DNA from: Streptacidiphilus jiangxiensis
GTDB lineage: Bacteria; Actinomycetota; Actinomycetes; Streptomycetales; Streptomycetaceae
Assembly (NCBI RefSeq): GCF_900109465.1
Contig: NZ_FOAZ01000002.1
Coordinates: forward strand, 496,001-560,000
DNA: 64,000 nt
Reading direction: 5' to 3'
Position 1 is the stretch's first letter. Each line of letters begins with the position of its first letter. A model generated the notes under the pieces. The model did not search any database. It saw nothing but the letters and a program-made list of their open reading frames with translations, and had not been told where the DNA came from. This document shows, piece by piece, positions 605 through 12,945 of this stretch. Both the position numbers and the translations under genes were made by a program.

Positions 605-1552
605 ATGTCCGCACGCCATCTGACCGAGTTCCACGGCCTCCCGGTCTTCGACTTCCCTTCCGCCAGCGCCGCCGAGACGCTCCCGGAGCCCGGCGGTGTC
701 GCCTGGCGGCTGCGGTACGACTGGGACGACGAGTCCGAGCAGTTCGAGCAGATCTGGCAGCGGTTCCTCGGCGCCGTGCGCACCGAGGACGTGCGGGCTC
801 TCGTGGTCGGGGCCTGGGAGGAGGAGATGTTCGAGGACACCCTGGGCCCGGTCCTGCAGCGGGTCGTCGACGCGCGTGACCGCTTCCCGGCGCTGCGCGC
901 CTTCTTCCTCGCCGACGTGGAGTCCGAGGAGAACGAGATCTCCTGGATCCAGCAGGTCGACCTGGCCCCGCTGCTGACCGCGTATCCGCAGTTGGCGGAG
1001 CTGGGCGCGCGCGGTGGCCACCGCGTCTTCACGCCCGTCGACCACGGGGCCCTGCGCAGTCTGCGCCTGGAGTCCGGCGGCCTGGCCCGTGAGGTGGTGC
1101 GGGGCATCACCGGGAGCAAGCTGCCCGCGCTCGAGAGCCTGGAGCTCTGGTTGGGCGTGGAGGAGTACGGCGGCGACACGACCGTCGCCGACCTGGCCCC
1201 ACTGCTCGACGGCGGGGCCTTCCCGGCGCTGCGTCATCTCGGCCTGCAGGACAGCGAGCTCCAGGACGAGATCGCGGCCGCGGTCGCCACCGCGCCGGTC
1301 GTCCCGTCGCTGACCTCGCTCAGTCTCTCCATGGGCGTCCTGACCGACGCGGGTGCCGAGTCCCTCCTCGGCGGTCAGTCGCTCACCCACCTCGACCGGC
1401 TCGACCTGCACCACCACTTCCTGTCCGACGCGATGATGCAGCGGCTGCGCGACACCCTCGAACCGGCCGGCGTCGAGCTCGACCTGAGCGACCGGAGCAC
1501 GCCGAGTGAGTGGGGCGGCGAGCAGCACCGCTACGTCGCCGTCTCCGAGTGA
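605..1552 (+). CDS. STM4015-family leucine-rich repeat protein, copy 1
   Basis: This 315-residue protein is full of leucine-rich repeat segments (LPALESLELWLG, FPALRHLGLQ, LTSLSLSMGVL, LTHLDRLDLHHHF). It starts with the HLTEFHGLPVFD motif and ends exactly in YVAVSE. The family is known only from its constant neighbours (STM4011-STM4014) and has no assigned function. I chose ATG 605 because GGAG at 593-596 lies eight bases upstream; an in-frame GTG at 596 overlaps that site. It is the first gene of the run and is followed after 19 bases by a paralogue. LRR folds usually bind other proteins, so a partner or substrate role for the radical SAM enzymes is possible but is my inference. Confidence 0.88.
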   Translation: MSARHLTEFHGLPVFDFPSASAAETLPEPGGVAWRLRYDWDDESEQFEQIWQRFLGAVRTEDVRALVVGAWEEEMFEDTLGPVLQRVVDARDRFPALRAFFLADVESEENEISWIQQVDLAPLLTAYPQLAELGARGGHRVFTPVDHGALRSLRLESGGLAREVVRGITGSKLPALESLELWLGVEEYGGDTTVADLAPLLDGGAFPALRHLGLQDSELQDEIAAAVATAPVVPSLTSLSLSMGVLTDAGAESLLGGQSLTHLDRLDLHHHFLSDAMMQRLRDTLEPAGVELDLSDRSTPSEWGGEQHRYVAVSE

Positions 1553-1571
1553 CGCAGGGAGGAGCCGCATC

Positions 1572-2546
1572 ATGAGCGTCGAGAACCACCTCACCACCTT
1601 CCACGGCCTGCCCGTCGTCGACTACGCCGCCCTGATGACGAAGGGCGAGCCGCTCCCCGCACCCGACGCCGTCGCCTGGCGCCTGGCCGTCGACCCCGGC
1701 GACTGGTACAATCCCCGGCCCGGCGGGTTCGACGGCTACGACGCCGTCTGGCAGGACTTCCTGGCCCGTGTCGACGTGCACCGGGTCCGCGCGCTGGTGC
1801 TGGGCTGCTGGGACCGGTCCGCGTACGAGGGCATCGAGGACCTTCGGGACCTGCTCGTCGACCGCGCGGGGTCGTTCCCCGCGCTGCGAGCCGTCTTCCT
1901 CGGCGACCTGGTCCGCGAGGAGAGCGACATCGCCTACCTGCACCAGTGCGACCCGGTCCCGCTGCTCGACGCCTTCCCGCTGTTGGAGGAGTTCGGCGCA
2001 CGCGGCGGCCACCAGGGCTGCGGGCCGTTGCGCCACGCCGCGCTGCGCACGCTCCGCTTCGAATCCGGCGGCCTCCCGGCCGAGGTGGTCCGGGCCGTCG
2101 CCGAGGCCGAGCTGCCGGCGCTGGAGAGCCTGACGCTCTGGCTCGGCGTCGAGGACTACGGCGGCACGAACGACGTCTCCCTCCTCGCCCCGCTGCTGGA
2201 AGGCCGGCGCCTGCCCGCCCTGCGGCACCTCGGCCTCGCGGACAGCGAGGTGCAGGACGCGATCGCGGCCGCCGTCGCCACCGCACCGGTCGTCGCCCGG
2301 CTCACCTCACTCGACCTCTCCATGGGCGTCCTGACCGAGGCCGGGGCCCGGGCCCTGCTCGAGGGTCAGTCGCTGACACACCTCGAACACCTCGACCTGC
2401 ACCACCACTTCCTCAGTCAGGAGACGTCCGACGCGCTGCGCGCCGCGCTGGAGCCGGCGGGCGTCGTGCTGGACACGAGCGACCCACAGATCCCTGAGCA
2501 GTACGGCGAGGGTGACCCCTGGTTCTACGTCGCCGTCTCGGAGTGA
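1572..2546 (+). CDS. STM4015-family leucine-rich repeat protein, copy 2
   Basis: This 324-residue paralogue of the preceding gene shares the N-terminal FHGLPVVDY motif, the central block with ESGGL, LPALESL and LWLGVE, the LSMGVLTEAG and LDLHHHFLS segments, and the identical C-terminal YVAVSE. ATG 1572 is supported by AGGGAGG at 1556-1562. The two copies differ most between about residues 20 and 60 and just before the C-terminus (this one has ...PWFYVAVSE). Its TGA overlaps the GTG start of STM4014 by four bases, so translation is coupled. Tandem duplication of the LRR member suggests that two related forms act in one system. Confidence 0.88.
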   Translation: MSVENHLTTFHGLPVVDYAALMTKGEPLPAPDAVAWRLAVDPGDWYNPRPGGFDGYDAVWQDFLARVDVHRVRALVLGCWDRSAYEGIEDLRDLLVDRAGSFPALRAVFLGDLVREESDIAYLHQCDPVPLLDAFPLLEEFGARGGHQGCGPLRHAALRTLRFESGGLPAEVVRAVAEAELPALESLTLWLGVEDYGGTNDVSLLAPLLEGRRLPALRHLGLADSEVQDAIAAAVATAPVVARLTSLDLSMGVLTEAGARALLEGQSLTHLEHLDLHHHFLSQETSDALRAALEPAGVVLDTSDPQIPEQYGEGDPWFYVAVSE

Positions 2547-3745
2547 CGACGGTGTCCGCCCACTCCCCCGTGCGCTACGCGGTCGTCGGCGTGCCCGGCA
2601 ACCGCCGTGTCGCGATGTTCGCCGAGGCCGTGCGCGCGGCGGGTCTCGGCGAGCCGGTCGTCGTCCCGTGGCAGGTGGTGGTGGAGGCGGCCGCCCGCCC
2701 CGAGGTCTCCTCGGACGTGTCCGGCGGGCCGTTGGCGCTGCCGCCCGGGTGCCTGATCCGGGTGGACTCGCCCGGCGAGGACGCCGCCGTCGACCGGCTG
2801 CTGCGCGGTCACGCGCTCGGGGCCGGCTGGGCGCCGACGCGGGTCGAGGGTAGTGCGGCCTGGTACGCGGGCTTCCGTCGCGCCCTGCACACGCTGGCCA
2901 CCGCCGCGGCCGAGACGCCCGGCTGCCGTCTCCTCGCCGATCCGGACGAGATCGGCGTCATGTTCGACAAGCGGCTCACCCATGAGCGGCTCAGCGCCGC
3001 CCGGGTCCCGGTCCCGCCGGTGCTCGTCCAGGGCCCGGGCGGCCTCTCCGGTTGGGAGGAGCTACGGGAGCTGATGCACGAACAGCGCCTGCCGCGGGTC
3101 TTCGTCAAGCCGGCCCACGGCTCCTCCGCCTCCGGCGTCGTCGCCCTGGAGCTCGGCCCCGGAGGCCGGGCCACCGCCACCACCTCCGCGGAGCTGGCGG
3201 TGGCGCAGGACGGCAGCTCACAGCTGCACAACTCCCTCCGGGTCCGCCGCTACCGGTCCGAGCCGGAGCTCCGGGCGCTCTTCACCGCGCTCGCCGCCGA
3301 ACCCCTGCACGTCGAACGCTGGGTGCCCAAGGCGACGCAGGGTGGGCGCGCGGCCGACGTGCGGGCCGTGGTGACGGCGGGTCGGGCCACGCACCTGGTC
3401 GTGCGCACCAGCGGCCACCCGATGACCAACCTGCACCTGGGGGGCCGCCGAGGCGACCTGTCCGGGCTCAGGGCGGCGGTCGGCGCCGGCTGGGGGTTGC
3501 TGCTGGAGACGGCGGAACGCGCGGCGGCCTGTTTTCCCGGCAGCCCGTCCGTCGGGGTGGATCTGCTGCCCGGCATCGGCTGGCAACGCTTCCGGGTCGG
3601 CGAGGTCAACGCCTTCGGCGATCTGCTGCCCGGCCTCACCGGCTTGCCCGGCAGCGGCGCCGAGGGCCGCGACACCTACGCGGCCTTCGTCGCCGCCACC
3701 GCAACACGCCCGTCCACGCACCGAGAGCTCCTGACATGCCCCTGA
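2543..3745 (+). CDS. STM4014-family ATP-grasp protein
   Basis: This 400-residue protein has ATP-grasp features: a DKRLTHERL segment in the preATP-grasp region, a nucleotide-binding VFVKPAHGSSASG loop, an acidic VERWVPKA segment, and a late VGEVNAFGDLLPG motif with the Glu and Asn expected to hold Mg-ATP. ATP-grasp enzymes join a carboxylate to an amine or thiol through an acyl-phosphate, so ligation is the probable chemistry; the substrate is unknown. The GTG start at 2543 overlaps the previous stop (GTGA). The 3' end overlaps the next gene by ten bases. The family name follows the conserved STM4011-STM4015 neighbourhood. Confidence 0.88.
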   Translation: MTTVSAHSPVRYAVVGVPGNRRVAMFAEAVRAAGLGEPVVVPWQVVVEAAARPEVSSDVSGGPLALPPGCLIRVDSPGEDAAVDRLLRGHALGAGWAPTRVEGSAAWYAGFRRALHTLATAAAETPGCRLLADPDEIGVMFDKRLTHERLSAARVPVPPVLVQGPGGLSGWEELRELMHEQRLPRVFVKPAHGSSASGVVALELGPGGRATATTSAELAVAQDGSSQLHNSLRVRRYRSEPELRALFTALAAEPLHVERWVPKATQGGRAADVRAVVTAGRATHLVVRTSGHPMTNLHLGGRRGDLSGLRAAVGAGWGLLLETAERAAACFPGSPSVGVDLLPGIGWQRFRVGEVNAFGDLLPGLTGLPGSGAEGRDTYAAFVAATATRPSTHRELLTCP

Positions 3746-4638
3746 ACGAACCGCACCCGAGCGCTCCCAGGGGCGGTGGTGTTCCCCGCTCCCCCGATCT
3801 CGACATGAACGAGATCGTCGGCAGCCACGACATCCTCCTCGTCACCCTCGACACCCTGCGCTTCGACGTGGCCCAGGAGCTGGCCACGGCGGGCCGGCTG
3901 CCGAAGCTCGCCGCCGCCGTGCTGCCGGGCGGGCGCTGGGAGCGCCGGCACAGTCCCGGTAGCTTCACCTACGCGGCCCACCAGGCCATCTTCGCCGGGT
4001 TCCTGCCCACTCCGGCCGAGCCGGACGGCCCGCGTGAACGCCTCTTCGCCGCTCGCTTCGCGGGCAGCGAGACGACGGCCCCGGCCACCTACGTCTACGA
4101 CACCCCCGACCTCGTCTCCGGCCTGGCCACCGCCGGCTACCGCACGGTCTGCATCGGGGGGGTGGGGTTCTTCAACAAGCAGGCAGCGCTGGGTTCGGTG
4201 CTGCCCGGCATGTTCCAGGAGAGCCACTGGTCGCCCGAGCTCGGGGTCGCCTCACCCACCTCCTTCGAGTCCCAGGTCGACCTGGCCGAGCGGATCTCCG
4301 CCGGCCAGCGGCCCGACCAGCCGCTCTTCCTCTTCGTCAACGTCTCGGCGCTGCACCAGCCCAACTGGTTCCACCTCCCCGGTGCGACTCGCGAGCACGG
4401 CGACAGCCGTGCCTCGCACGCCGCCGCGCTGGAGTACGTGGACGCTCATGTCGGTCGGCTGTTCGCGGCGATGCGGCGTCGGCGCCCGTGCCTGGCGATC
4501 GTCTGCTCCGACCACGGCACCGCCTACGGCGACGACGCGTACCACGGTCACCGGCTCGGCCACGAGGTCGTGTGGACCGTCCCGTACGCGCACGCCGTGC
4601 TGCCTGCCTCCCCCTTCGCCGCCGAGGAGACACCGTGA
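3736..4638 (+). CDS. STM4013-family sulfatase/alkaline-phosphatase-fold protein
   Basis: This 300-residue protein has the alkaline phosphatase superfamily layout in a compact form: an N-terminal strand ILLVTLDTLRFD with the metal-binding Asp and candidate Thr nucleophile, and a C-terminal metal site VCSDHGTAYGDD followed by HGHRLGHE. It lacks the CxPxR formylglycine motif of true sulfatases, so a phosphoesterase- or transferase-like reaction is more likely. ATG 3736 overlaps STM4014 by ten bases; ATG 3805, where family-like sequence (MNEIVGSHD) begins, is an alternative start. The stop overlaps the STM4012 start by four bases. The substrate is unknown. Confidence 0.87.
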   Translation: MPLNEPHPSAPRGGGVPRSPDLDMNEIVGSHDILLVTLDTLRFDVAQELATAGRLPKLAAAVLPGGRWERRHSPGSFTYAAHQAIFAGFLPTPAEPDGPRERLFAARFAGSETTAPATYVYDTPDLVSGLATAGYRTVCIGGVGFFNKQAALGSVLPGMFQESHWSPELGVASPTSFESQVDLAERISAGQRPDQPLFLFVNVSALHQPNWFHLPGATREHGDSRASHAAALEYVDAHVGRLFAAMRRRRPCLAIVCSDHGTAYGDDAYHGHRLGHEVVWTVPYAHAVLPASPFAAEETP

Positions 4639-6080
4639 CCGTCACCGATCTGCCGTTCCCCGCGACATCCCGTCCGGCGTCACCCGCGAGCCTGCCCGCA
4701 CGCCTGCCCGCACGCCTGCCCGCCGGCGAATCCCCCTACCAGAGCTACGTCTACGCCTACCCGCACAAGACGGCGTACCGCCCGCTGGCACCACGCCCCC
4801 GGCTCGCGGCCCTGTGGGCCGAGGAGCCGAAGCACGCCCTCTCGCTCTACGCGCACATCCCCTTCTGCGAGGTGCGCTGCGGCTTCTGCAACCTCTTCAC
4901 CAGGATCGGCGCGCCGGACGGCCTCAGCACCGCGTACCTCGACGCGCTCGACCGACAGGCGGCCCGCACCGCCGAGGCCCTCGCCGCCGGGACGGGCGGC
5001 GAGCCGCGGTTCGCGCAGGCCGCTTTCGGCGGCGGCACGCCCACCTTCCTGACGGCGGACGAGCTCGCCCGTCTCTGCGACATCATGGAACACCGCCTGG
5101 GCGCCGACCTCCGGGCCGTCCCTCTCTCCGTCGAGGCCTCCCCGAGCACCGCGACGGCCGACCGGCTCGCGGTGCTCGCGGAGCGTGGTGCCACCCGGCT
5201 CAGTCTCGGCGTGCAGAGCTTCGTGGCCGCCGAGGCCCGCGCGGCGGTGCGCCCCCAGCACAACGCGGACGTGGAGGCGGCGATCGCCCGGGTCCGGGCC
5301 GCGGGCATCCCGGTGCTCAACCTGGACCTCATCTACGGCATCGACGGGCAGACGCCCGCCAGTTGGCGTCAGTCGCTGGACGCCGCCCTCGCCTTCGAGC
5401 CCGAGGAGCTGTACCTGTACCCGCTCTACGTCCGCCCGCTGACGGGCCTCGGCCGCCGGACCGAGGGCGACGCGTCGTCGGCGGTCGACGCCGACCGGGC
5501 CTGGGACGCCCAGCGGCTGGCGCTCTACCGGCAGGGCCGGGACCACCTGCTGGCCTCCGGATACGAGCAGGTGTCCATGCGGATGTTCCGCCGCTCCGCG
5601 TCCCCGCAGGCGGGTGGCACCGAGTACTGCTGCCAGACCGACGGCATGGTCGGGCTCGGCTGCGGTGCCCGCTCGTACACGCGCGCGCTGCACTACTCCT
5701 TCGACTACGCCGTCTCCACCGCTGAGGTCCGCGGCATCGTCGACGACTACGTCGCCCGCCCCGCCGAGGATTTCGCCTTCGCCGAGGTGGGCTTCGCGAT
5801 GACGCCGGACGAGGCCCGGCGCCGGCACCTGGTGCAGTCCCTGCTCCAGGCCGAGGGCCTGGACACCGGCGACTACCGGGCCCGCTTCGGCAGCGACCCG
5901 GCCGCCGACTTCTCCCCCGAGCTGACCCGGCTGCACGAGCGGGGCTGGCTGGACGCGGACGCCGCGCCCTCGAGCCGGATCCGCCTGACCGCCGAGGGTC
6001 TGGCCCACTCCGACGCGATCGGCCCGGCGTTCTTCTCCGGCCCGGTGCGGGCCGCGATGGCCGCCTACGAGGCGAGGTGA
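4635..6080 (+). CDS. STM4012-family radical SAM protein (HemN-like fold)
   Basis: This 481-residue radical SAM enzyme carries the 4Fe-4S cluster motif CEVRCGFC (Cys78, Cys82, Cys85; CX3CX2C) and the HIPFC and FGGGTPTFL segments typical of the HemN/HemW branch. Such enzymes cleave S-adenosylmethionine to start radical chemistry. GTG 4635 overlaps the STM4013 stop (GTGA), with GAGGAGA at 4624-4630. The N-terminus contains a short tandem repeat (LPAR-LPAR-LPAG) that looks dispensable. It is not a haem-synthesis gene by context: all neighbours belong to the STM401x set and no other porphyrin genes are near. Confidence 0.9.
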   Translation: MTVTDLPFPATSRPASPASLPARLPARLPAGESPYQSYVYAYPHKTAYRPLAPRPRLAALWAEEPKHALSLYAHIPFCEVRCGFCNLFTRIGAPDGLSTAYLDALDRQAARTAEALAAGTGGEPRFAQAAFGGGTPTFLTADELARLCDIMEHRLGADLRAVPLSVEASPSTATADRLAVLAERGATRLSLGVQSFVAAEARAAVRPQHNADVEAAIARVRAAGIPVLNLDLIYGIDGQTPASWRQSLDAALAFEPEELYLYPLYVRPLTGLGRRTEGDASSAVDADRAWDAQRLALYRQGRDHLLASGYEQVSMRMFRRSASPQAGGTEYCCQTDGMVGLGCGARSYTRALHYSFDYAVSTAEVRGIVDDYVARPAEDFAFAEVGFAMTPDEARRRHLVQSLLQAEGLDTGDYRARFGSDPAADFSPELTRLHERGWLDADAAPSSRIRLTAEGLAHSDAIGPAFFSGPVRAAMAAYEAR

Positions 6081-6084
6081 CCAG

Positions 6085-6999
6085 GTGGTGACCGCCCCGC
6101 TCCTGCCGCCCGCGCACCAGGGGCCCCCGGGTACGCCGGAGTCGCTGACGATCCTGTACCGGGGCCCGCTCGCCTCCTGCGACTACGACTGCCCCTACTG
6201 CCCGTTCGCCAAGCATCGCGACAGCCGGGCCGAGCTGACCGCGGACCGCGAAGCCCTGGCACGCTTCGCGGGCTGGGTACGCGAGGAGAGCGGCCGCACC
6301 CGGCTCTCGCTGCTCTTCACGCCCTGGGGCGAAGGACTGGTCCGATCCTGGTACCGGCGCACCCTGGCCGAGCTGAGTCGGCTCCCGCACGTGCACCGCG
6401 TGGCGATCCAGACGAACCTGAGCGCACGCACCGACTGGGTCGACCAGGCGTGCCCGCGGACGTTGGCCCTCTGGACCACCTACCACCCCGGCCAGGTGAG
6501 CCACGACCGGTTCCTGGCCAAGTGCCGTGAGCTGGACGGCCGGGGCATCCGCTACAGCGTCGGCGTGGTCGGCGATCCGGCCCACCTCGACGCGGCTCGG
6601 CGGATGCGCGCCGCGCTGCCCGCCCACGTCTACCTCTGGGTCAACGCCCAGGAGGGCCGCCGGTACAGCGAGGCCGAGGCCGCGCCGTGGGCGGAGCTCG
6701 ACCCGCTCTTCCCGTTCAGCCGCGATCCGCACCCGAGCGCCGGGCGGTCCTGCCGCACGGGCGAGTCGGTCGTCTCCGTCGACGGCGAGGGCACGGTACG
6801 GCGCTGCCATTTCGTGAAGCAGCCCCTCGGCAACCTCTACGACGACTCGTTCCGCGCCGCCCTGCGTCCCCGTCCGTGCCCGCTGGGCGTCTGCGACTGC
6901 CACATCGGCTACGTGCACCTGGAGTCGCTGCCGCTCTACGACGTGTTCGCCGGCGGCGTGCTGGAGCGGATCCCGGCCGCCTGGCCGCGTCCCGCGTAG
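6085..6999 (+). CDS. STM4011-family radical SAM protein
   Basis: This 304-residue radical SAM protein has the cluster motif CDYDCPYC (Cys32, Cys36, Cys39). Its C-terminal third carries further cysteines (SCRTGE, RRCHF, CPLGVCDC) arranged like a SPASM/twitch domain, which in related enzymes binds auxiliary Fe-S clusters and often serves peptide or protein modification. Two adjacent GTG codons (6085, 6088) are possible starts, four bases after the STM4012 stop. It is the last gene of the rightward run. With a second radical SAM enzyme, an ATP-grasp and LRR partners, modification of a protein or small peptide is a reasonable guess, but no substrate is known. Confidence 0.88.
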   Translation: MVTAPLLPPAHQGPPGTPESLTILYRGPLASCDYDCPYCPFAKHRDSRAELTADREALARFAGWVREESGRTRLSLLFTPWGEGLVRSWYRRTLAELSRLPHVHRVAIQTNLSARTDWVDQACPRTLALWTTYHPGQVSHDRFLAKCRELDGRGIRYSVGVVGDPAHLDAARRMRAALPAHVYLWVNAQEGRRYSEAEAAPWAELDPLFPFSRDPHPSAGRSCRTGESVVSVDGEGTVRRCHFVKQPLGNLYDDSFRAALRPRPCPLGVCDCHIGYVHLESLPLYDVFAGGVLERIPAAWPRPA

Positions 7000-7017: not shown

Positions 7018-7063
7018 GCCAGGCCGGTCCAGGCCGTCCAGCCCGCCAGGCCCGTCAGGCCGG
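7018..7063. repeat. imperfect short tandem repeat between convergent genes
   Basis: About five imperfect copies of a CCAGGCCGT-like unit lie between the stop of the STM4011 gene (6999) and the convergent ABC-transporter gene, running into the latter's last codons. A GGCCGGCCGGCC stretch just before it can fold. It may serve as a two-way terminator, but there is no clean long stem. Simple slippage in GC-rich sequence is an equal explanation. Confidence 0.45.
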
Positions 7064-9136
7064 GTCGCCGGTCAGGGCAGGTGAGGCGTCCGGGAGCGGG
7101 GTCTGCAGCGGGAAGTGGCAGGCGGCCGTGTGACCGGTGGCAAAGAGGCGAGGGGTGGGTTCCTCCAGGGCGCAGAGATCCTGGGCGAGGGGGCAGCGGG
7201 TGCGGAAGCGGCAGCCGGAGGGTGGGGCCAGCGGGCTGGGCAGCTCGCCCCTGACGCCCGCGCCGTGCTTGGCGCGCTCCACGTCCGGGTCCGGGACCGG
7301 GACGGCCTTGAGCAGGCCGGCCGTGTAGGGGTGGGCGGCGCGGAGGTGGATGTCGTCGGCGCTGCCGACCTCCACCATGCGGCCCAGGTACATGACGCCG
7401 ATCCGGTCGGCGAGGTAGCGGACCACCGCGAGGTCGTGGGAGATGACGACGTAGGACAGACCGTGCGAGACCTGGAGGCCCCGCATCAGGTTGAGCACCT
7501 GGGCGCGGACGGAGACGTCCAGGGCCGAGACCGGTTCGTCCGCGACGATCAGCTTCGGGGTGAGGGCCAGGGCCCGGGCGAGGCCCACGCGTTGGCGCTG
7601 GCCGCCGGAGAACTCGTGCGGGTAGAGGTCCGCGGCGTGCGCGGGCAGGCCGACCTCGGCGAGGAGTTCGGCGACGCGCTCGCGCTGCTCGCTCGTGGTC
7701 CCGAGGCCCTGGATCTGCAGCGGTTCCCGCAGGATGCTGCCGACGCGCATGCGGGGGTCGAGGGAGGAGAACGGGTCCTGGAACATCATCTGCAGGTCGC
7801 GGCGGCGTTGCCTCAGCTCGCGGCCGCGCAGTCGGCCGAGGTCGGTCCCGTCCAGGGTGACGGTGCCGGAGTCGGGCCGGTCCAGGCCGACAAGGAGGCG
7901 GCCGAGGGTCGTCTTGCCGCAGCCGGACTCGCCGACGATGCCGAGCGTCTCGCCGTGCCCGATGGTGAGCGAGACGCCGGAGAGGGCGTGCACGACGCGT
8001 CGCTCCCGGCCGGGCAGCCAACTGCCGCGGACCGGGAACTCGCGCACCAGGTCACGGGCTTCCAGCACCGGGCGTTCGGCGACGGCCGCGGAGGCCACGG
8101 CGGCGGCCTGGGCGGGGAGGACCACCTCCACGTCCATCGGCGTGTCCACCGGTTCGGCCGGGCGGGGGCCGTCCGTCGGGTGCCAGCAGGCGTACCGGTG
8201 CGTGGCCGGGCCGGTGAGCTCCGGTTCCGCGGTGCGGCACCGGTCGGTGGCGTACTGGCAGCGCGCGGCGAAGCGGCAGCCGCTCGGCGGGTCCGTGAGG
8301 TCCGGCGGCAGGCCGGGGATGGTGGGGAGTTGGCCCGTCGGCCCCCGGTCGAGCCGCGGCACGGAGGCGAGCAGGCTCTGTGTGTAGGGGTGGCGCATCG
8401 CGCGGAACAGCGGGCCGGTCCCGGCGCTCTCGGCGATGCGGCCGGCGTACATGACGTTGACGCGGTCGGTGTGTCCGGCGGTGACGCCCATGTCGTGGGT
8501 GATCAGGATCATCGCCATCCGCAGCCGGGCCCGCAGGTCCGCCAGGAGGTCGAGGATCTGCGCCTGGATGGTGACGTCGAGGGCCGTGGTGGGCTCGTCG
8601 GCGATCAGCACCTTGGGCTCGTTGACGAGTGCCATGGCGATCAGCACACGCTGGCGCAGGCCGCCGGACAGCTGGTGCGGGTAGTCACCCAGGCGCTCGC
8701 GCGGGTGGGGCAGGCCGACGAGCCCGAGCACCTCCGCGGCCCGGTCGGCCGCCTCGGCGCGGGTGCCGCCGCGGTGCAGGAGTACGGACTCGGCGACCTG
8801 GTGACCGATGGTCTTGGTGGGGTCCAGAGCGCTCATCGGGTCCTGGAAGACCATGGCGATCTCGTTGCCGCGCACCCGGCGCAGATCGCTCTCGGGCAGC
8901 CCGACCAGCTCGCGGCCGCCCAGCCGCACCGAGGAGTCGCCGACGATCGAGCCGCCGCGCGGCAGCAGTCCCATGACGGACAGTCCGGTCATGGACTTGC
9001 CGCAGCCGGACTCACCGACCAGGCCGAGGGTCTCGCCCTCCTCCAGGGTGAACGAGACACCGTCGACGGCGCGGACGACCCCGCGGCGGGTCCGGATGTG
9101 GGTGGTCAGGTTGCTGACCTCAAGGAGCGGTGGCAT
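7055..9136 (-). CDS. peptide ABC transporter, fused double ATP-binding protein (DppD-DppF type)
   Basis: This 693-residue protein contains two complete ABC ATPase domains. The first has Walker A GESGCGKS (about residue 40), signature LSGGLRQR and Walker B LIADEPT. The second, from about residue 350, has GESGCGKT, signature FSGGQRQR and LIVADEPVS. Each is followed by the oligopeptide-type C-terminal extension with clustered cysteines ([20 protein letters not shown]). It supplies ATP hydrolysis for import of peptides, or possibly nickel. It is the last gene of the leftward operon SBP-permease-permease-ATPase, 48 bases after the second permease. Fusion of both ATPases into one chain is common in actinomycetes. 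Confidence 0.95.
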
Positions 9137-9184
9137 GCGTGGTGTCCTCAGGTGCAGACGCGGCGGACGGGGCGGACGGGGTGG

Positions 9185-10114
9185 TCACGGTTGGTCGAGT
9201 CGGACGTCCAGGGCGTCGTGGACGGCGTCGCCGACCAGGTTGAACGCCACGACGGTGACGATCAGCAGCCCCGCGGCCGGATAGACCTGCCACCAGTAGC
9301 CGTCGTAGAGGGAGTTGAGGCCGGCGGAGAGCATGGTGCCCCAGTCGGCGTGCGGCGGCGGGAGGCCGAGCCCGAGGAAGCTCAACGCGGAGAGGGTGAG
9401 GATCGAGTCGGCCACGGTGAACGTGCCGCTGACGATGACCACGCCCGCGGCGTTCGGCACCAGGTGGCGCAGCACGATGCGCCGTCCGGTGCCACCCATC
9501 ATCCGCGCCGCCTGCACGAACTCCCGGGTGCGCAGCGTGAGCACCTCGCCCCGCACCAGGCGGGCCGCCCCGAGCCAGGAGAGCAGCGACAGCAGCAGGA
9601 TGATCCCCCAGAGCGTGGGGGTGAACATGCTGACCATCATCAGCAGCAGGACGATGGTGGGCACGGCCAGGAAGACGTCGATGACGCGCATCATCAACGC
9701 GTCGACGAAGCCGCCGAGATAACCGGCGACGGCACCGTAGAGGGTGCCGATGACGGTCGTGGTGACGGCCACGGCCAGGCCGAGTTCGAGCGAGGAGCGT
9801 CCACCGGTCATCAGCCGCCCGAGCACGTCGTAGCCCGAGGCGTCGGTGCCGAGCGGATTCGCGGCGCCCGGCGGCAGGTCGGCCAGGTCCAGTCGGACGG
9901 TGACCTGGTCGGTCCGGTAGAGCAGTGGTCCGAGGAAGCAGAACGCGGCGACCACCGCGATCAGGACCAGCCCGACCAGGGCCCGCCGATTGTGCAGGAA
10001 GGCGGGCATGGAGAAGCGACGCCGCCCCGGGGCGGCAAGCTCGGGCGCGGGCGTTGCCGGGGAGTCGGACGGCGAGTCGGGCGGGGAGTCGAGTGGCGAA
10101 TCAAGCGTCGACAT
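9185..10114 (-). CDS. peptide ABC transporter permease (DppC type)
   Basis: This 309-residue inner-membrane permease has a cytoplasmic Ser/Asp/Pro repeat leader (residues about 5-25), a first membrane span around residues 45-65, and a BPD-transp-1 domain with the EAA-loop region ([21 protein letters not shown]) that contacts the ATPase. ATG at 10112-10114 was chosen over longer frames because it overlaps the end of the upstream permease by 14 bases and starts a family-like leader. It forms the channel with the DppB-type partner. Confidence 0.93.
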
Positions 10115-11054
10115 AGCGGATCCGGGGGTCGAGGAGGCTGTAGGCGATGTCGGCGAACAGGCTGCCCAGGACGGTCGCCACACCGACCACCAGCGTCGAC
10201 CCGAGCATGATCGGGTAGTCCTTGCTGGTGGCGGCCTGGTAGAAGAGCAGCCCCATGCCCGGGTAGTTGAACACGGACTCGGCGATGACGGCGCCGGCCA
10301 CGATGCTCGGCGCGGACAGCCCGAGGATGGTGATGACGGGCAGCATCGAGTTGCGCAGCACGTGCCGGCGCAGGACCAGCCGCTCCGGCAGGCCCTTGGA
10401 CCGGGCGACCTGGACGTAGTCCTGGGCCAGCGTGGTGAGGGCGGAGGCACGCATGTAGCGGCTGAAGCCCGCCAGGCTGACCAGGGTCAGCGTGACCACG
10501 GGCAGCACCAGCCCCTGCGGGTCGGCGAGGATGCCGCCGACGGACTCCGCCTGCGGGGCCTCCGAGGGCAGCAGGTGGAACTGCACCGAGAAGACCGCGA
10601 TCAGGACCAGCGCGAAGAAGAAGTCCGGCATCGAGTACAGCACGAAGGAGACGACGGTGAAGACGTGGTCGGCGATCCGGCCGCGGCGCACCGCCTGGTA
10701 GATCCCCATCGGCAGCGCGATCGCGAGCGCGAGCAGGGTGGAGAGCCCGAGCAGCAGTCCGTCGCGCGGCAGTCGCTGCGCGATCAGCGTGGAGACGGGC
10801 TGCTGCATGGAGTAGGAGGTGCCGAAGTTCCCCCGGGCCGCCTGCTCCACGAAGGTCAGGAACTGCGTGGAGAGCGGCTTGTCCAGGCCGTAGGCGGCGT
10901 TGAACATGGCGATCCGCTCGGCGGTGGCCCGGGTCCCGAGGGTGGCCCGGGCGGCGCTGCCCGGCACCATGTGGATCATGAAGAAGGTCAGCACCATGAC
11001 GCCGAGCACCACCACGACGGCCTGACCGATCCGGCGGACGAGATACGCGGTCAC
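10101..11054 (-). CDS. peptide ABC transporter permease (DppB type)
   Basis: This 317-residue permease begins with the canonical YLVRRIGQAVVVVLGV first span and shows the DppB/OppB fingerprint with the VPGSAA segment, the periplasmic loop and the EAA motif (QDYVQVARSKGL). About six membrane spans are visible. It lies 40 bases downstream of the binding-protein gene and overlaps the next permease, consistent with one transcript. Confidence 0.95.
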   Translation of the reverse strand: MTAYLVRRIGQAVVVVLGVMVLTFFMIHMVPGSAARATLGTRATAERIAMFNAAYGLDKPLSTQFLTFVEQAARGNFGTSYSMQQPVSTLIAQRLPRDGLLLGLSTLLALAIALPMGIYQAVRRGRIADHVFTVVSFVLYSMPDFFFALVLIAVFSVQFHLLPSEAPQAESVGGILADPQGLVLPVVTLTLVSLAGFSRYMRASALTTLAQDYVQVARSKGLPERLVLRRHVLRNSMLPVITILGLSAPSIVAGAVIAESVFNYPGMGLLFYQAATSKDYPIMLGSTLVVGVATVLGSLFADIAYSLLDPRIRYVDA

Positions 11055-11094
11055 CGCGCCCCCACCAGGGGGGCGCGGTCCGACGCGGGTGACG

Positions 11095-12945
11095 TCACGA
11101 GGTGTACGCCCAGTCCTCGTAGTCCTGACCGGCGGAGAAGGGGTTGAGCGGGACGACGCCCTGCAGCTTGGTCCGGTAGACCAGCAGGCCGTTGCGCAAC
11201 GGGAGCCACAGCCACGGCAGTTGCTGGGCCGCGTAGTCCTCGTACTGGGTGAACGCCTGCTGCGAGGAGCCGTACTCGGTGGCCTTGATCAGCTGGTCCA
11301 TCGTCGGGTCGGAGTAGCCACCCGCGTTGTTGGCGCCGTTGGTGTCGAAGAAGCCGGTGCCGTTGGGGTAGAGCGAGTACGGCTGGTAGCCGAACTCCGA
11401 CAGCTGCCAGCCGCAGGTGGACGCGGGGTGCGACGCCGCCGTGCAGGTGCCGATCTGGCTGATCAGGGTGTTGAACGGCTCCGACTTGAGGTTCAGGGTG
11501 ATGCCGGCCTGCGCCTCGGAGGACTTGATGGCGGCGTTCTGCACGTCCGTGGTGGCCCGGCCCGACGAGTAGAGCAGCTCGAAGGTGAGCGCCTGGCCGG
11601 CCGTGATGCCGGCGCCGCACTGGGTGGGCCCGGAGCCGGGGTTGCTGCAGGTCGTCACTCCGTTGGGCACGACCTTCCAGCCGTGCGCCTGGAGCAGGGC
11701 GACGGCCTTGCCCGGGTTGTACGGGTACGGGCCGCCGGACTTCTCCAGCGGCGAGGCCCACGCCGCGGCCGCCTTGACCGGCACGGGACCGTTGCCGGGG
11801 TCCGCGTAGCCGTTGTAGACCTTGGCGACGATCTGGTTCCGGTCGATCAGGTACTCCATCGCCTGCCGGACGTACAACTGCTGCAGCAGCGGGCCGACCT
11901 GGGCGTTGTACAGGTTCGGCTGGATCTCGGCGACGCCGGGGATGGGAACGCTGGCGATCGAGTAGCCGCTCGACTCCAGCGCCTGGGCCTGCTTGATGTC
12001 GTTCTGCGGCAGCGAGGCGACATCGAGCGAGCTGCCCGAGCGCAGCGCGTTGATCTCGGGGGTGTCCGAGGTGAAGGGCGAGAAGACGACCTTGTCGAGC
12101 ATCGGCTTGGTGGTGCCCGAGTAGCTCTTGTTCGGGATGTACCTGTAGTAGCCGTTGCTCCGGAACTCCGAGAGCTTCCAGGGCCCGTCGACGACCTGCC
12201 AGAGCGGGTTGGTGGCGAACTCGGCTATCTTCGCCCCCTCCTGCTGCAGGTAGGCGTAGACGGCCTTGGCGCCCGCGGTCGTGGTGTCGTTGTCGCCGAC
12301 GGCCCCGCTCGCGGAGGTCTTGTCCCAGGCGTGCTGGGGCAGCAGCGGAATGGTGCTGAGGACGTCGTCGGTGTAGAAGTCCGGGTTGTAGGCCTGAGTG
12401 AGGTCGAGGACCACGGTGTGGGCGTCCGGGGTGGTGACGTTCGCGACGTCCTCGGGGAAGAGCCCGACGAGGTGGGCGTTCCAGTTCGACGCGTTCGCCT
12501 TCAGCAGGTTGTAGACGAAGGTGAAGTCCCGACTGGTGACCGGCTGCCCGTCGGACCAGTTCCAGTTCTTCAGCGTGATGGTGATCCGCTTGTCGCCGTT
12601 GCTGTAGTCCAGCGAACTGAACAGGCTCTTCTGCTTGTTGACGACGGATGCGCCGCCGTCGCCCGCGTAGACGAGGGTCGGCCACAGCGGTTGGGTGAGG
12701 TTGGCGTTCCAGCCGTTCTGGTTGGTCGCCGGAGGGAGCGGGAAGACGAAGTCGGGCGTCGCGGCCAACTCCGCGATGGTGACCGTCCCGCCCTGCTTCA
12801 CCGGCCCCTTGGCCGCAGTGGCGCTCTCGCCGTTGTTGATGGCCCCGCTGCCGCCGCTGCCCGAGCAGCCGGCGGCTGCGAGCGCCAGGGCGGTCACGGC
12901 CACAGCGGCTCTGAACCGGTGGCCCCTCCGTGTGCGCGTCCCCAT
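11095..12945 (-). CDS. extracellular solute-binding lipoprotein, family 5 (peptide-type)
   Basis: This 616-residue lipoprotein has a twin-Arg/Lys-rich start, a hydrophobic signal and the lipobox LAAAGC (Cys at about residue 27), so it is anchored outside the membrane. The rest is a family-5 binding protein, including KQGGTVTIAELA near the mature N-terminus, an internal NWNWSDGQPVTS segment and a C-terminal lobe with several cysteines. ATG at 12943-12945 is preceded by AAGGGAG at good spacing. It captures peptides (or another small ligand) for the permeases and ATPase downstream. As first gene it should carry the operon promoter in 12946-13173. Confidence 0.95.
   Translation of the reverse strand: MGTRTRRGHRFRAAVAVTALALAAAGCSGSGGSGAINNGESATAAKGPVKQGGTVTIAELAATPDFVFPLPPATNQNGWNANLTQPLWPTLVYAGDGGASVVNKQKSLFSSLDYSNGDKRITITLKNWNWSDGQPVTSRDFTFVYNLLKANASNWNAHLVGLFPEDVANVTTPDAHTVVLDLTQAYNPDFYTDDVLSTIPLLPQHAWDKTSASGAVGDNDTTTAGAKAVYAYLQQEGAKIAEFATNPLWQVVDGPWKLSEFRSNGYYRYIPNKSYSGTTKPMLDKVVFSPFTSDTPEINALRSGSSLDVASLPQNDIKQAQALESSGYSIASVPIPGVAEIQPNLYNAQVGPLLQQLYVRQAMEYLIDRNQIVAKVYNGYADPGNGPVPVKAAAAWASPLEKSGGPYPYNPGKAVALLQAHGWKVVPNGVTTCSNPGSGPTQCGAGITAGQALTFELLYSSGRATTDVQNAAIKSSEAQAGITLNLKSEPFNTLISQIGTCTAASHPASTCGWQLSEFGYQPYSLYPNGTGFFDTNGANNAGGYSDPTMDQLIKATEYGSSQQAFTQYEDYAAQQLPWLWLPLRNGLLVYRTKLQGVVPLNPFSAGQDYEDWAYTS

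Follow-up and report, generated by a model that had tools for sequence, protein, structure and literature searches.

Gene organization of the STM4011-STM4015 cassette

We analyzed a 64,000-nt stretch of the genome of Streptacidiphilus jiangxiensis (contig NZ_FOAZ01000002.1, positions 496,001 to 560,000; i.e., the window, with positions counted from its first letter), in which a tightly packed operon of six genes occupies positions 605 to 6999 of the plus strand. The operon consists of two copies of STM4015, which encodes a leucine-rich repeat (LRR) protein, and one copy each of STM4014, STM4013, STM4012, and STM4011, in the order 4015-4014-4013-4012-4011 on one strand. All six proteins score above the curated NCBIfam cutoffs, in agreement with a sequence-only reading of the window that had proposed a complete STM4011-STM4015 cassette with a duplicated LRR member. 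The features are as follows (SAM, S-adenosylmethionine; NPP, nucleotide pyrophosphatase/phosphodiesterase).

605..1552, plus strand: STM4015 copy 1, LRR protein of 315 amino acids, the more canonical copy; NF038076, 380 bits (cutoff, 275); ends in RYVAVSE
1532..1549, plus strand: codons for YVAVSE at the C terminus of copy 1, the last codon being that of the near-invariant Glu (from the translation)
1572..2546, plus strand: STM4015 copy 2, 324 amino acids, the diverged copy; NF038076, 333 bits (cutoff, 275)
2526..2543, plus strand: codons for YVAVSE at the C terminus of copy 2, the last base doubling as the first base of STM4014 (from the translation and coordinates)
2543..3745, plus strand: STM4014, RimK/LysX-type ATP-grasp protein of 400 amino acids; NF038074, 404 bits (cutoff, 175)
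3805..4638 (alternative start, 3736), plus strand: STM4013, alkaline phosphatase superfamily (sulfatase/NPP fold) protein with Thr as the residue at the nucleophile position; NF038075, 418 bits (cutoff, 250)
4635..6080, plus strand: STM4012, HemN/NocN-like radical SAM protein with CxxxCxxC; NF006067, 630 bits (cutoff, 380)
6085..6999, plus strand: STM4011, radical SAM protein with a C-terminal SPASM/twitch-like Cys cluster; NF038073, 407 bits (cutoff, 200)

The overlapping or near-touching frames reported earlier were reproduced, with gaps or overlaps of 4 to 59 nt between the six genes. The junctions are, in order, a 19-nt gap, a 4-nt overlap in which the GTG start of STM4014 overlaps the stop of STM4015 copy 2, a 10-nt overlap or a 59-nt gap, a second 4-nt overlap, and a 4-nt gap; the third of these (STM4014/STM4013) is ambiguous, as STM4013 starts at either 3736 or 3805. 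That no function is in print for the cassette also agrees with our literature search: no functional study of STM4011-STM4015/SEN3800, of 2ra8/Q64V53 (a solved STM4015 homolog), or of DUF6745 (a family found beside some cassettes) was found in the open-license literature. STM4015 is tabulated in a positive-selection study (PMC2784778), and a sigma54 site is given at STM4013.S (PMC3844500). The cassette families are already known, as families without a function; what is new here is a testable feature, i.e., the terminal Glu of STM4015.

Near-invariant terminal glutamate of STM4015

Thinning of 470 STM4015 sequences by the 4-mers shared by their bodies (i.e., by body similarity only) yielded 142 nonredundant proteins. 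Before thinning, we removed 12 short or broken entries from 360 database proteins, of which 7 end in Glu and 5 (truncated or chimeric) do not. The terminal residue is Glu in 140 of the 142 proteins. All of the best 120 of 2060 relatives of window copy 2 end in Glu, as do all of the best 120 of 1528 relatives of a Paenibacillus STM4015 and 115 of the best 120 of 235 relatives of the Salmonella protein; judging by their lengths and ends, the five Glu-less relatives of the latter are truncated or chimeric. The residue is found in Salmonella, Escherichia coli, Methylobacterium, Deinococcus, Paenibacillus, Bacteroides, and Calothrix. In the solved homolog from Bacteroides fragilis (PDB 2ra8, Q64V53; E value, 2e-86), the aligned part runs from residue 68 to a terminal YPMITE and is preceded by an additional N-terminal part; a search of the open-license literature found no paper that names this structure. 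Some other STM4015 homologs (P0191, P0218, and others) carry an N-terminal WGR domain.

In the 142-protein set, the last column ranks 17th of 279 by conservation (entropy), while positions -2 to -8 are variable (the commonest letter occurs in 56 to 96 of the 142 proteins; e.g., Y/N/F/S at -6 and T/S/G/A at -2) and the stretch upstream of -8 varies more. The tail thus follows a pattern of about [YFN]x[AM]x[TSGA]E. The other polar residues kept in at least 90% of the proteins lie at positions 80 to 279. For 141 of 142 proteins, the charges of the last 26 residues sum to a negative value (mean, -6.4). The sequence-only reading had pointed to the C-terminal YVAVSE, which is indeed identical in both window copies; across the family, just its last residue is near-invariant. 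Its claim that the C terminus is singled out stands in a sharper form, since conservation there far exceeds that of the preceding stretch, and the element of interest is a terminal Glu on an acidic tail. An HHHF segment, which had been regarded as special or recognized, is not a family feature; its three His positions hold His in 80, 76, and 128 of 142 proteins, and we ruled it out as a recognized segment.

The ends of the other cassette proteins served as a control. We obtained 99 full cassettes from 109 loci examined, one of which is an E. coli locus with an STM4015 gene annotated as frameshifted that was counted by its C-terminal piece. In these cassettes, 110 of 112 STM4015 copies are Glu terminal, while the commonest last residue occurs in only 25 of the STM4014, 60 of the STM4013, 26 of the STM4012, and 39 of the STM4011 proteins (i.e., ragged ends). 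Because 80 of the 99 cassettes stem from one genome-contig scan (the best 80 of at least 561 relatives), we made a thinned set of 40 cassettes, in which Glu ends 47 of 48 STM4015 copies and the commonest last residues of STM4014, STM4013, STM4012, and STM4011 occur in 5, 21, 11, and 11 of the 40 proteins, respectively. The importance of the tail is therefore well supported, and the terminal Glu is very probably essential for function.

STM4014, a distant RimK/LysX-type ATP-grasp protein

At an E value threshold of 0.01, the only secondary NCBIfam matches of STM4014 are RimK (TIGR00768; E value, 4e-6; 26.4 bits against a cutoff of 143.4) and LysX (TIGR02144; E value, 4e-4; 19.7 bits against a cutoff of 275.6), both far below their cutoffs. 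The top matches of the STM4014 profile in the PDB are 3vpd and 1uc8 (E value, 7e-6), both of which we take to be LysX, with the D-x-R and ITN...GG stretches aligned. The PDB titles of these entries are those of an S6 modification protein and a lysine biosynthesis enzyme. Both D-x-R and N-x-x-G-D were found in 99 of 99 STM4014 proteins (here and below, counts out of 99 refer to one protein per cassette and to simple patterns). The loop aligned to the GSWGR motif of LysX reads GSSASG-like in STM4014, a change that might be expected if ligase and tail had changed together; the simple pattern for this loop matched 76 of 99 proteins. On these sequence grounds STM4014 is a distant RimK/LysX-type ATP-grasp protein, and it probably acts on the terminal Glu of STM4015.

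STM4013, STM4012, and STM4011

STM4013 matches the sulfatase family (PF00884; E value, 3e-10), and in a profile search it aligned to 2gsn, a nucleotide pyrophosphatase (E value, 5e-8). In the alignments with NPP proteins and sulfatases, Thr occupies the nucleophile position; a Thr..His motif is present in 99 of 99 homologs and DHGT in 96 of 99. The formylglycine motif (CxPSR type) was found in 0 of 99 homologs, as expected from the earlier description of a sulfatase-fold protein lacking it, and a type I sulfatase was ruled out on this basis.

STM4012 aligned with HemN (1olt; E value, 1e-53) over most of its length and in part with the radical SAM methyltransferase NocN (9p2u; E value, 4e-32). 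All 99 STM4012 proteins carry CxxxCxxC and none carries the CxxxCxxCxC of HemN, i.e., the fourth Cys is missing; we therefore rejected the idea that STM4012 is a genuine HemN that works on the side chain of Glu. In STM4011, the C-terminal Cys region matches SkfB (6efn; E value, 5e-4). Of the SPASM-like cluster proposed for this protein, a C-terminal C(x4)CxC is present in 98 of 99 proteins, and the match to SPASM PF13186 is weak and below the cutoff (16.7 bits; cutoff, 21.5). A pattern for the first half (CxxG, 7 to 12 letters, C) was found in 0 of 99 proteins, though C223, G226, and C241 are invariant in 17 aligned rows, where G and the following C are 14 letters apart.

A second type of locus carries an STM4013-family protein (L037:7738-9309, L041:5816-8771, and L150:447-3838; NF038075 scores of 341, 349, and 338 bits, respectively; our loci and genomes are denoted by L and G numbers). 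The gene is accompanied by a NUDIX hydrolase and a small protein in L037 (annotation) and by a MoaA-like radical SAM protein and a dTMP-kinase-like protein in L041, and the frames beside it in L150 look alike by eye to those loci. None of the other cassette families was found in these three loci. An STM4013-like stretch, possibly host DNA, is also present in two short records of enterobacterial phages (OR845521.1 and OR850900.1, of 2.2 and 5.9 kb).

Duplication of STM4015

The two window copies of STM4015 are identical at 176 of 314 positions and are the only ones found in a search of the whole genome (9.5 Mb, 93 contigs). Two genomes of the same genus encode proteins identical to database entries of Streptacidiphilus anmyonensis and S. 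melanogenes. Genome G010 encodes a separate close relative of each window copy (75% identity for the copy 2 ortholog), and dN/dS (the ratio of nonsynonymous to synonymous substitution rates) against these orthologs is about 0.34 for copy 1 and about 0.38 for copy 2, i.e., both are under purifying selection. Residue 256 of copy 2 is Glu, where 142 of 142 homologs have Asp. In genome G006, the stretch after copy 1 matches copy 2 over its final 41 residues only (54% identity) and may be what is left of a lost second copy.

STM4015 is present at two or four copies in 9 of the 99 full cassettes, and no enzyme is multiplied in any of them (the counts cover the fetched stretches only; G181 has a second STM4013-family gene elsewhere). 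In the tree, the copies of Deinococcus, G224 (support, 93/92), and family f3 branch apart from the two window copies, so STM4015 was probably duplicated several times. Multiplication confined to STM4015 would fit a role as a carrier or substrate on which shared enzymes act.

Distribution of the cassette and of partial units

STM4015 occurs in six phyla (i.e., Actinomycetota, Bacillota, Pseudomonadota, Deinococcota, Bacteroidota, and Cyanobacteriota), and the cassette is present in 154 of 5426 complete E. coli genomes at 60 to 80% identity to the Salmonella query. One of the E. coli genomes (L146:4001-4848) has STM4015 annotated as frameshifted and the four enzyme genes not. The 80 loci of the genome-contig scan (Paenibacillus, Saccharibacillus, and two named Bacillus) were chosen solely by STM4015, and all 80 contain the four other genes in the same order.

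A two-gene unit of STM4015 and a shorter, divergent STM4014 relative was found in four genomes of a neighboring family (L045, L048, L050, and L053), with no STM4011-STM4013 genes beside it in the 15 to 16 kb fetched. Three of the ligases of these units match NF038074 below its cutoff (E values, 6e-18, 8e-17, and 3e-21). The two-gene units tie STM4015 to an ATP-grasp protein. In genome G015, no STM4013 scores above the cutoff, and of STM4011 just a remnant of 53 residues is left, next to a DUF6745 gene. On a plasmid of Bacteroides finegoldii (L144:8001-12018), STM4015, STM4014, and STM4011 are kept, with STM4013 and STM4012 present as fragments.

Neighboring genes and comparison with defense systems

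An adenylyl-sulfate kinase gene lies directly 3' of STM4011 in 18 of the 80 scan loci (by pattern; three were confirmed by family models), and a HAD-IIB phosphatase gene lies beside the cassette in Salmonella and E. coli (the family was checked for Salmonella). These optional neighbors may point to intermediates that are phosphorylated or sulfated.

A DUF6745 gene and a gene of about 100 amino acids flank the cassette in 14 loci (L034-L036, L039, L040, L042-L044, L046, L047, L051, L057, L059, and L061), and DUF6745 genes adjoin the Deinococcus and Methylobacterium cassettes. The DUF6745 protein of L034 has an LRR-like N-terminal part. No such pair adjoins the window cassette; the pair lies on another contig (L148:5094-6929). 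Among actinobacterial genomes, DUF6745 was found in 11 of 13 that have STM4015 and in 2 of 17 without it, the latter being part of all STM4015-less genomes (Fisher P = 1.1e-4, a test that ignores relatedness). Because it is present in 0 of the 80 scan loci, we ruled out DUF6745 as a core member and regard it as optional.

A PADLOC scan of the five cassette proteins (STM4015 copy 1) gave a single match, i.e., STM4012 to the candidate model PDC-M51A (E value, 1e-7), which does not identify the cassette as a known antiphage defense system. A PHROGs scan of the cassette proteins also gave one match (STM4011; E value, 3e-5), and the neighbor of about 100 amino acids matches a phage family of unknown function (PHROGs; E value, 6e-16). 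In the window, the minus strand at 7055 to 12945, facing the cassette, carries what by eye is an oligopeptide ATP-binding cassette (ABC) transporter-like set, which includes a 693-amino-acid protein with two ATPase-like halves.

Discussion

Gene content, gene order, co-conservation, intact motifs, the near-invariant terminal Glu, and the acidic tail can all be read directly from the sequences. By analogy with known systems, they suggest a pathway in which STM4015 may be a carrier (or a substrate), with ligation to the terminal Glu followed by radical SAM and phosphoesterase-like processing; we favor this explanation while regarding it as tentative. The LRR body of STM4015 would be recognized by the cassette enzymes, and its acidic, probably flexible tail would offer the terminal Glu as the attachment point. 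STM4014 would use ATP to form an amide between the gamma- or alpha-carboxyl of this Glu and an amino compound, as in LysX/LysW and RimK/S6. The attached group would presumably then be the substrate of the radical SAM proteins STM4011 and STM4012, and a phosphate (or related) ester of it may be hydrolyzed or transferred by STM4013. The fuller version, i.e., an LRR-scaffold carrier pathway in which an amino compound, once joined to the terminal Glu, is remodeled there and then used or released, is possible but more speculative.

The closest parallels are the amino-group carrier protein (AmCP) pathways. LysX joins the amino group of alpha-aminoadipate to LysW, at the gamma-carboxyl of its C-terminal Glu; the EDWGE tail of LysW is recognized by the GSWGR motif of LysX/ArgX (PMC10433800), and the enzymes of carrier pathways are described as binding negatively charged residues of the carrier (PMC9303977). 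The LysW/LysX and ArgW/ArgX systems share with the cassette a C-terminal Glu on an acidic tail, a LysX-related ATP-grasp protein, and several further enzymes. They differ in that LysW is a zinc protein of about 54 amino acids, whereas STM4015 is an LRR protein of about 300 amino acids, and in that the further enzymes of the cassette are radical SAM and phosphoesterase-like proteins, unlike those of the amino-group carrier pathways. Compared with AmCPs, STM4015 has the exact C-terminal Glu but neither EDWGE nor the zinc-binding Cys. Since the tail pattern differs and the solved homolog is an LRR protein, we did not file STM4015 as an AmCP member. The pearlin pathways (a peptide aminoacyl-tRNA ligase [PEARL] and a carrier peptide; e.g., 3-thiaglutamate) also build on a carrier C terminus, some with radical SAM enzymes (PMC9303977); no PEARL is encoded among the six genes, and STM4015 is a folded LRR protein. 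RimK, which adds Glu to the C terminus of S6 (a reference cited in PMC8939145), has in common with STM4014 the ATP-grasp relationship and, in the proposed pathway, a protein C terminus as the acceptor, which here would not be S6.

Several observations weigh against the carrier pathway. The EDWGE tail and zinc-binding Cys of LysW/ArgW have no counterpart in STM4015, with which neither the fold nor the zinc cysteines are shared, and no release peptidase was found in the cassette. The ligase function and the partner of STM4014 are putative, because it is a distant LysX/RimK relative with other ATP-grasp proteins close behind (after LysX at 7e-6, the PDB matches are biotin carboxylase at 8e-5, cyanophycin synthase, and D-Ala ligases). 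No universal sixth gene was found among neighbors of at least 110 amino acids within 6 kb, the largest families occurring in 18 of 98 loci. The ATP-grasp protein of the two-gene units has DVD where STM4014 has EVN. All four genomes with these units also have a full cassette (L044, L042, L051, and L043), so the unit is not evidence of independent working; in the G015 unit (L054), STM4015 is open and the ligase is reduced to about 59 residues, and independence of the two-gene unit was thus not borne out. STM4015 is also present without an adjacent ATP-grasp gene in the actinobacterial loci L049, L052, L055, and L056 and on a Calothrix plasmid (L145). Finally, both Glu-less exceptions among the 142 proteins represent the same paralog, which ends in GIGA and lies in the four-copy cassettes of two genomes (L042:9716-10612 and L043:8570-9424). 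The sister copies keep Glu; in this one paralog the terminal residue seems to have been lost naturally.

Among other explanations, STM4014 could add Glu or another amino acid to the C terminus of STM4015 as a lasting regulatory mark, in the manner of RimK on S6, with the radical SAM proteins acting elsewhere. RimK is the strongest secondary match of STM4014, and the two-gene units lack an adjoining radical SAM gene. However, the four partner genes in 80 of 80 loci chosen by STM4015 imply that the enzymes normally belong with the tail, and the two-gene units occur in genomes that hold a full cassette or, in the cassette-less G015, with a fragmentary ligase. We consider such tailing unlikely.

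Similarly improbable is a process like that of ribosomally synthesized and posttranslationally modified peptides, in which STM4011 and STM4012 would modify tail residues (by cross-linking, decarboxylation, or methylation near the terminal Glu) and STM4014 would play a supporting role. The SPASM/twitch-like cluster of STM4011, with its C-terminal match to the peptide maturase SkfB, and the resemblance of STM4012 to HemN and the methyltransferase NocN would suit it. Yet no tail residue save the terminal Glu is near-invariant, the HemN CxC motif is absent from STM4012, and in the two-gene units the partner of STM4015 is an ATP-grasp gene, not a radical SAM gene. A PQQ- or mycofactocin-like chemistry was rejected because of the same lack of near-invariant tail residues.

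Least probable is that the Glu tail serves docking or stability, binding STM4014 or another partner while STM4015 acts as a scaffold or regulator of a free small-molecule pathway: LRR proteins are usually binding proteins, the WGR domains, the frequent DUF6745 and 100-amino-acid neighbors, and the Glu ends of STM4015 proteins without an adjacent ATP-grasp gene would agree with this, but docking motifs would rarely need one exact-end residue while its neighbors vary, and the nearest known ligase relatives (LysX and RimK) use a C-terminal Glu or a C terminus as the acceptor.

With a near-invariant terminal residue adjoined by a relative of ligases acting on residues of this kind, an open annotation becomes a directly testable question. 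If the carrier pathway is correct, an unrelated carrier fold would join amide-tethered biosynthesis, and a metabolite or protein-bound group would await discovery. STM4015 would then represent a type of carrier unlike LysW in fold and spread over several phyla, including in E. coli and Salmonella.

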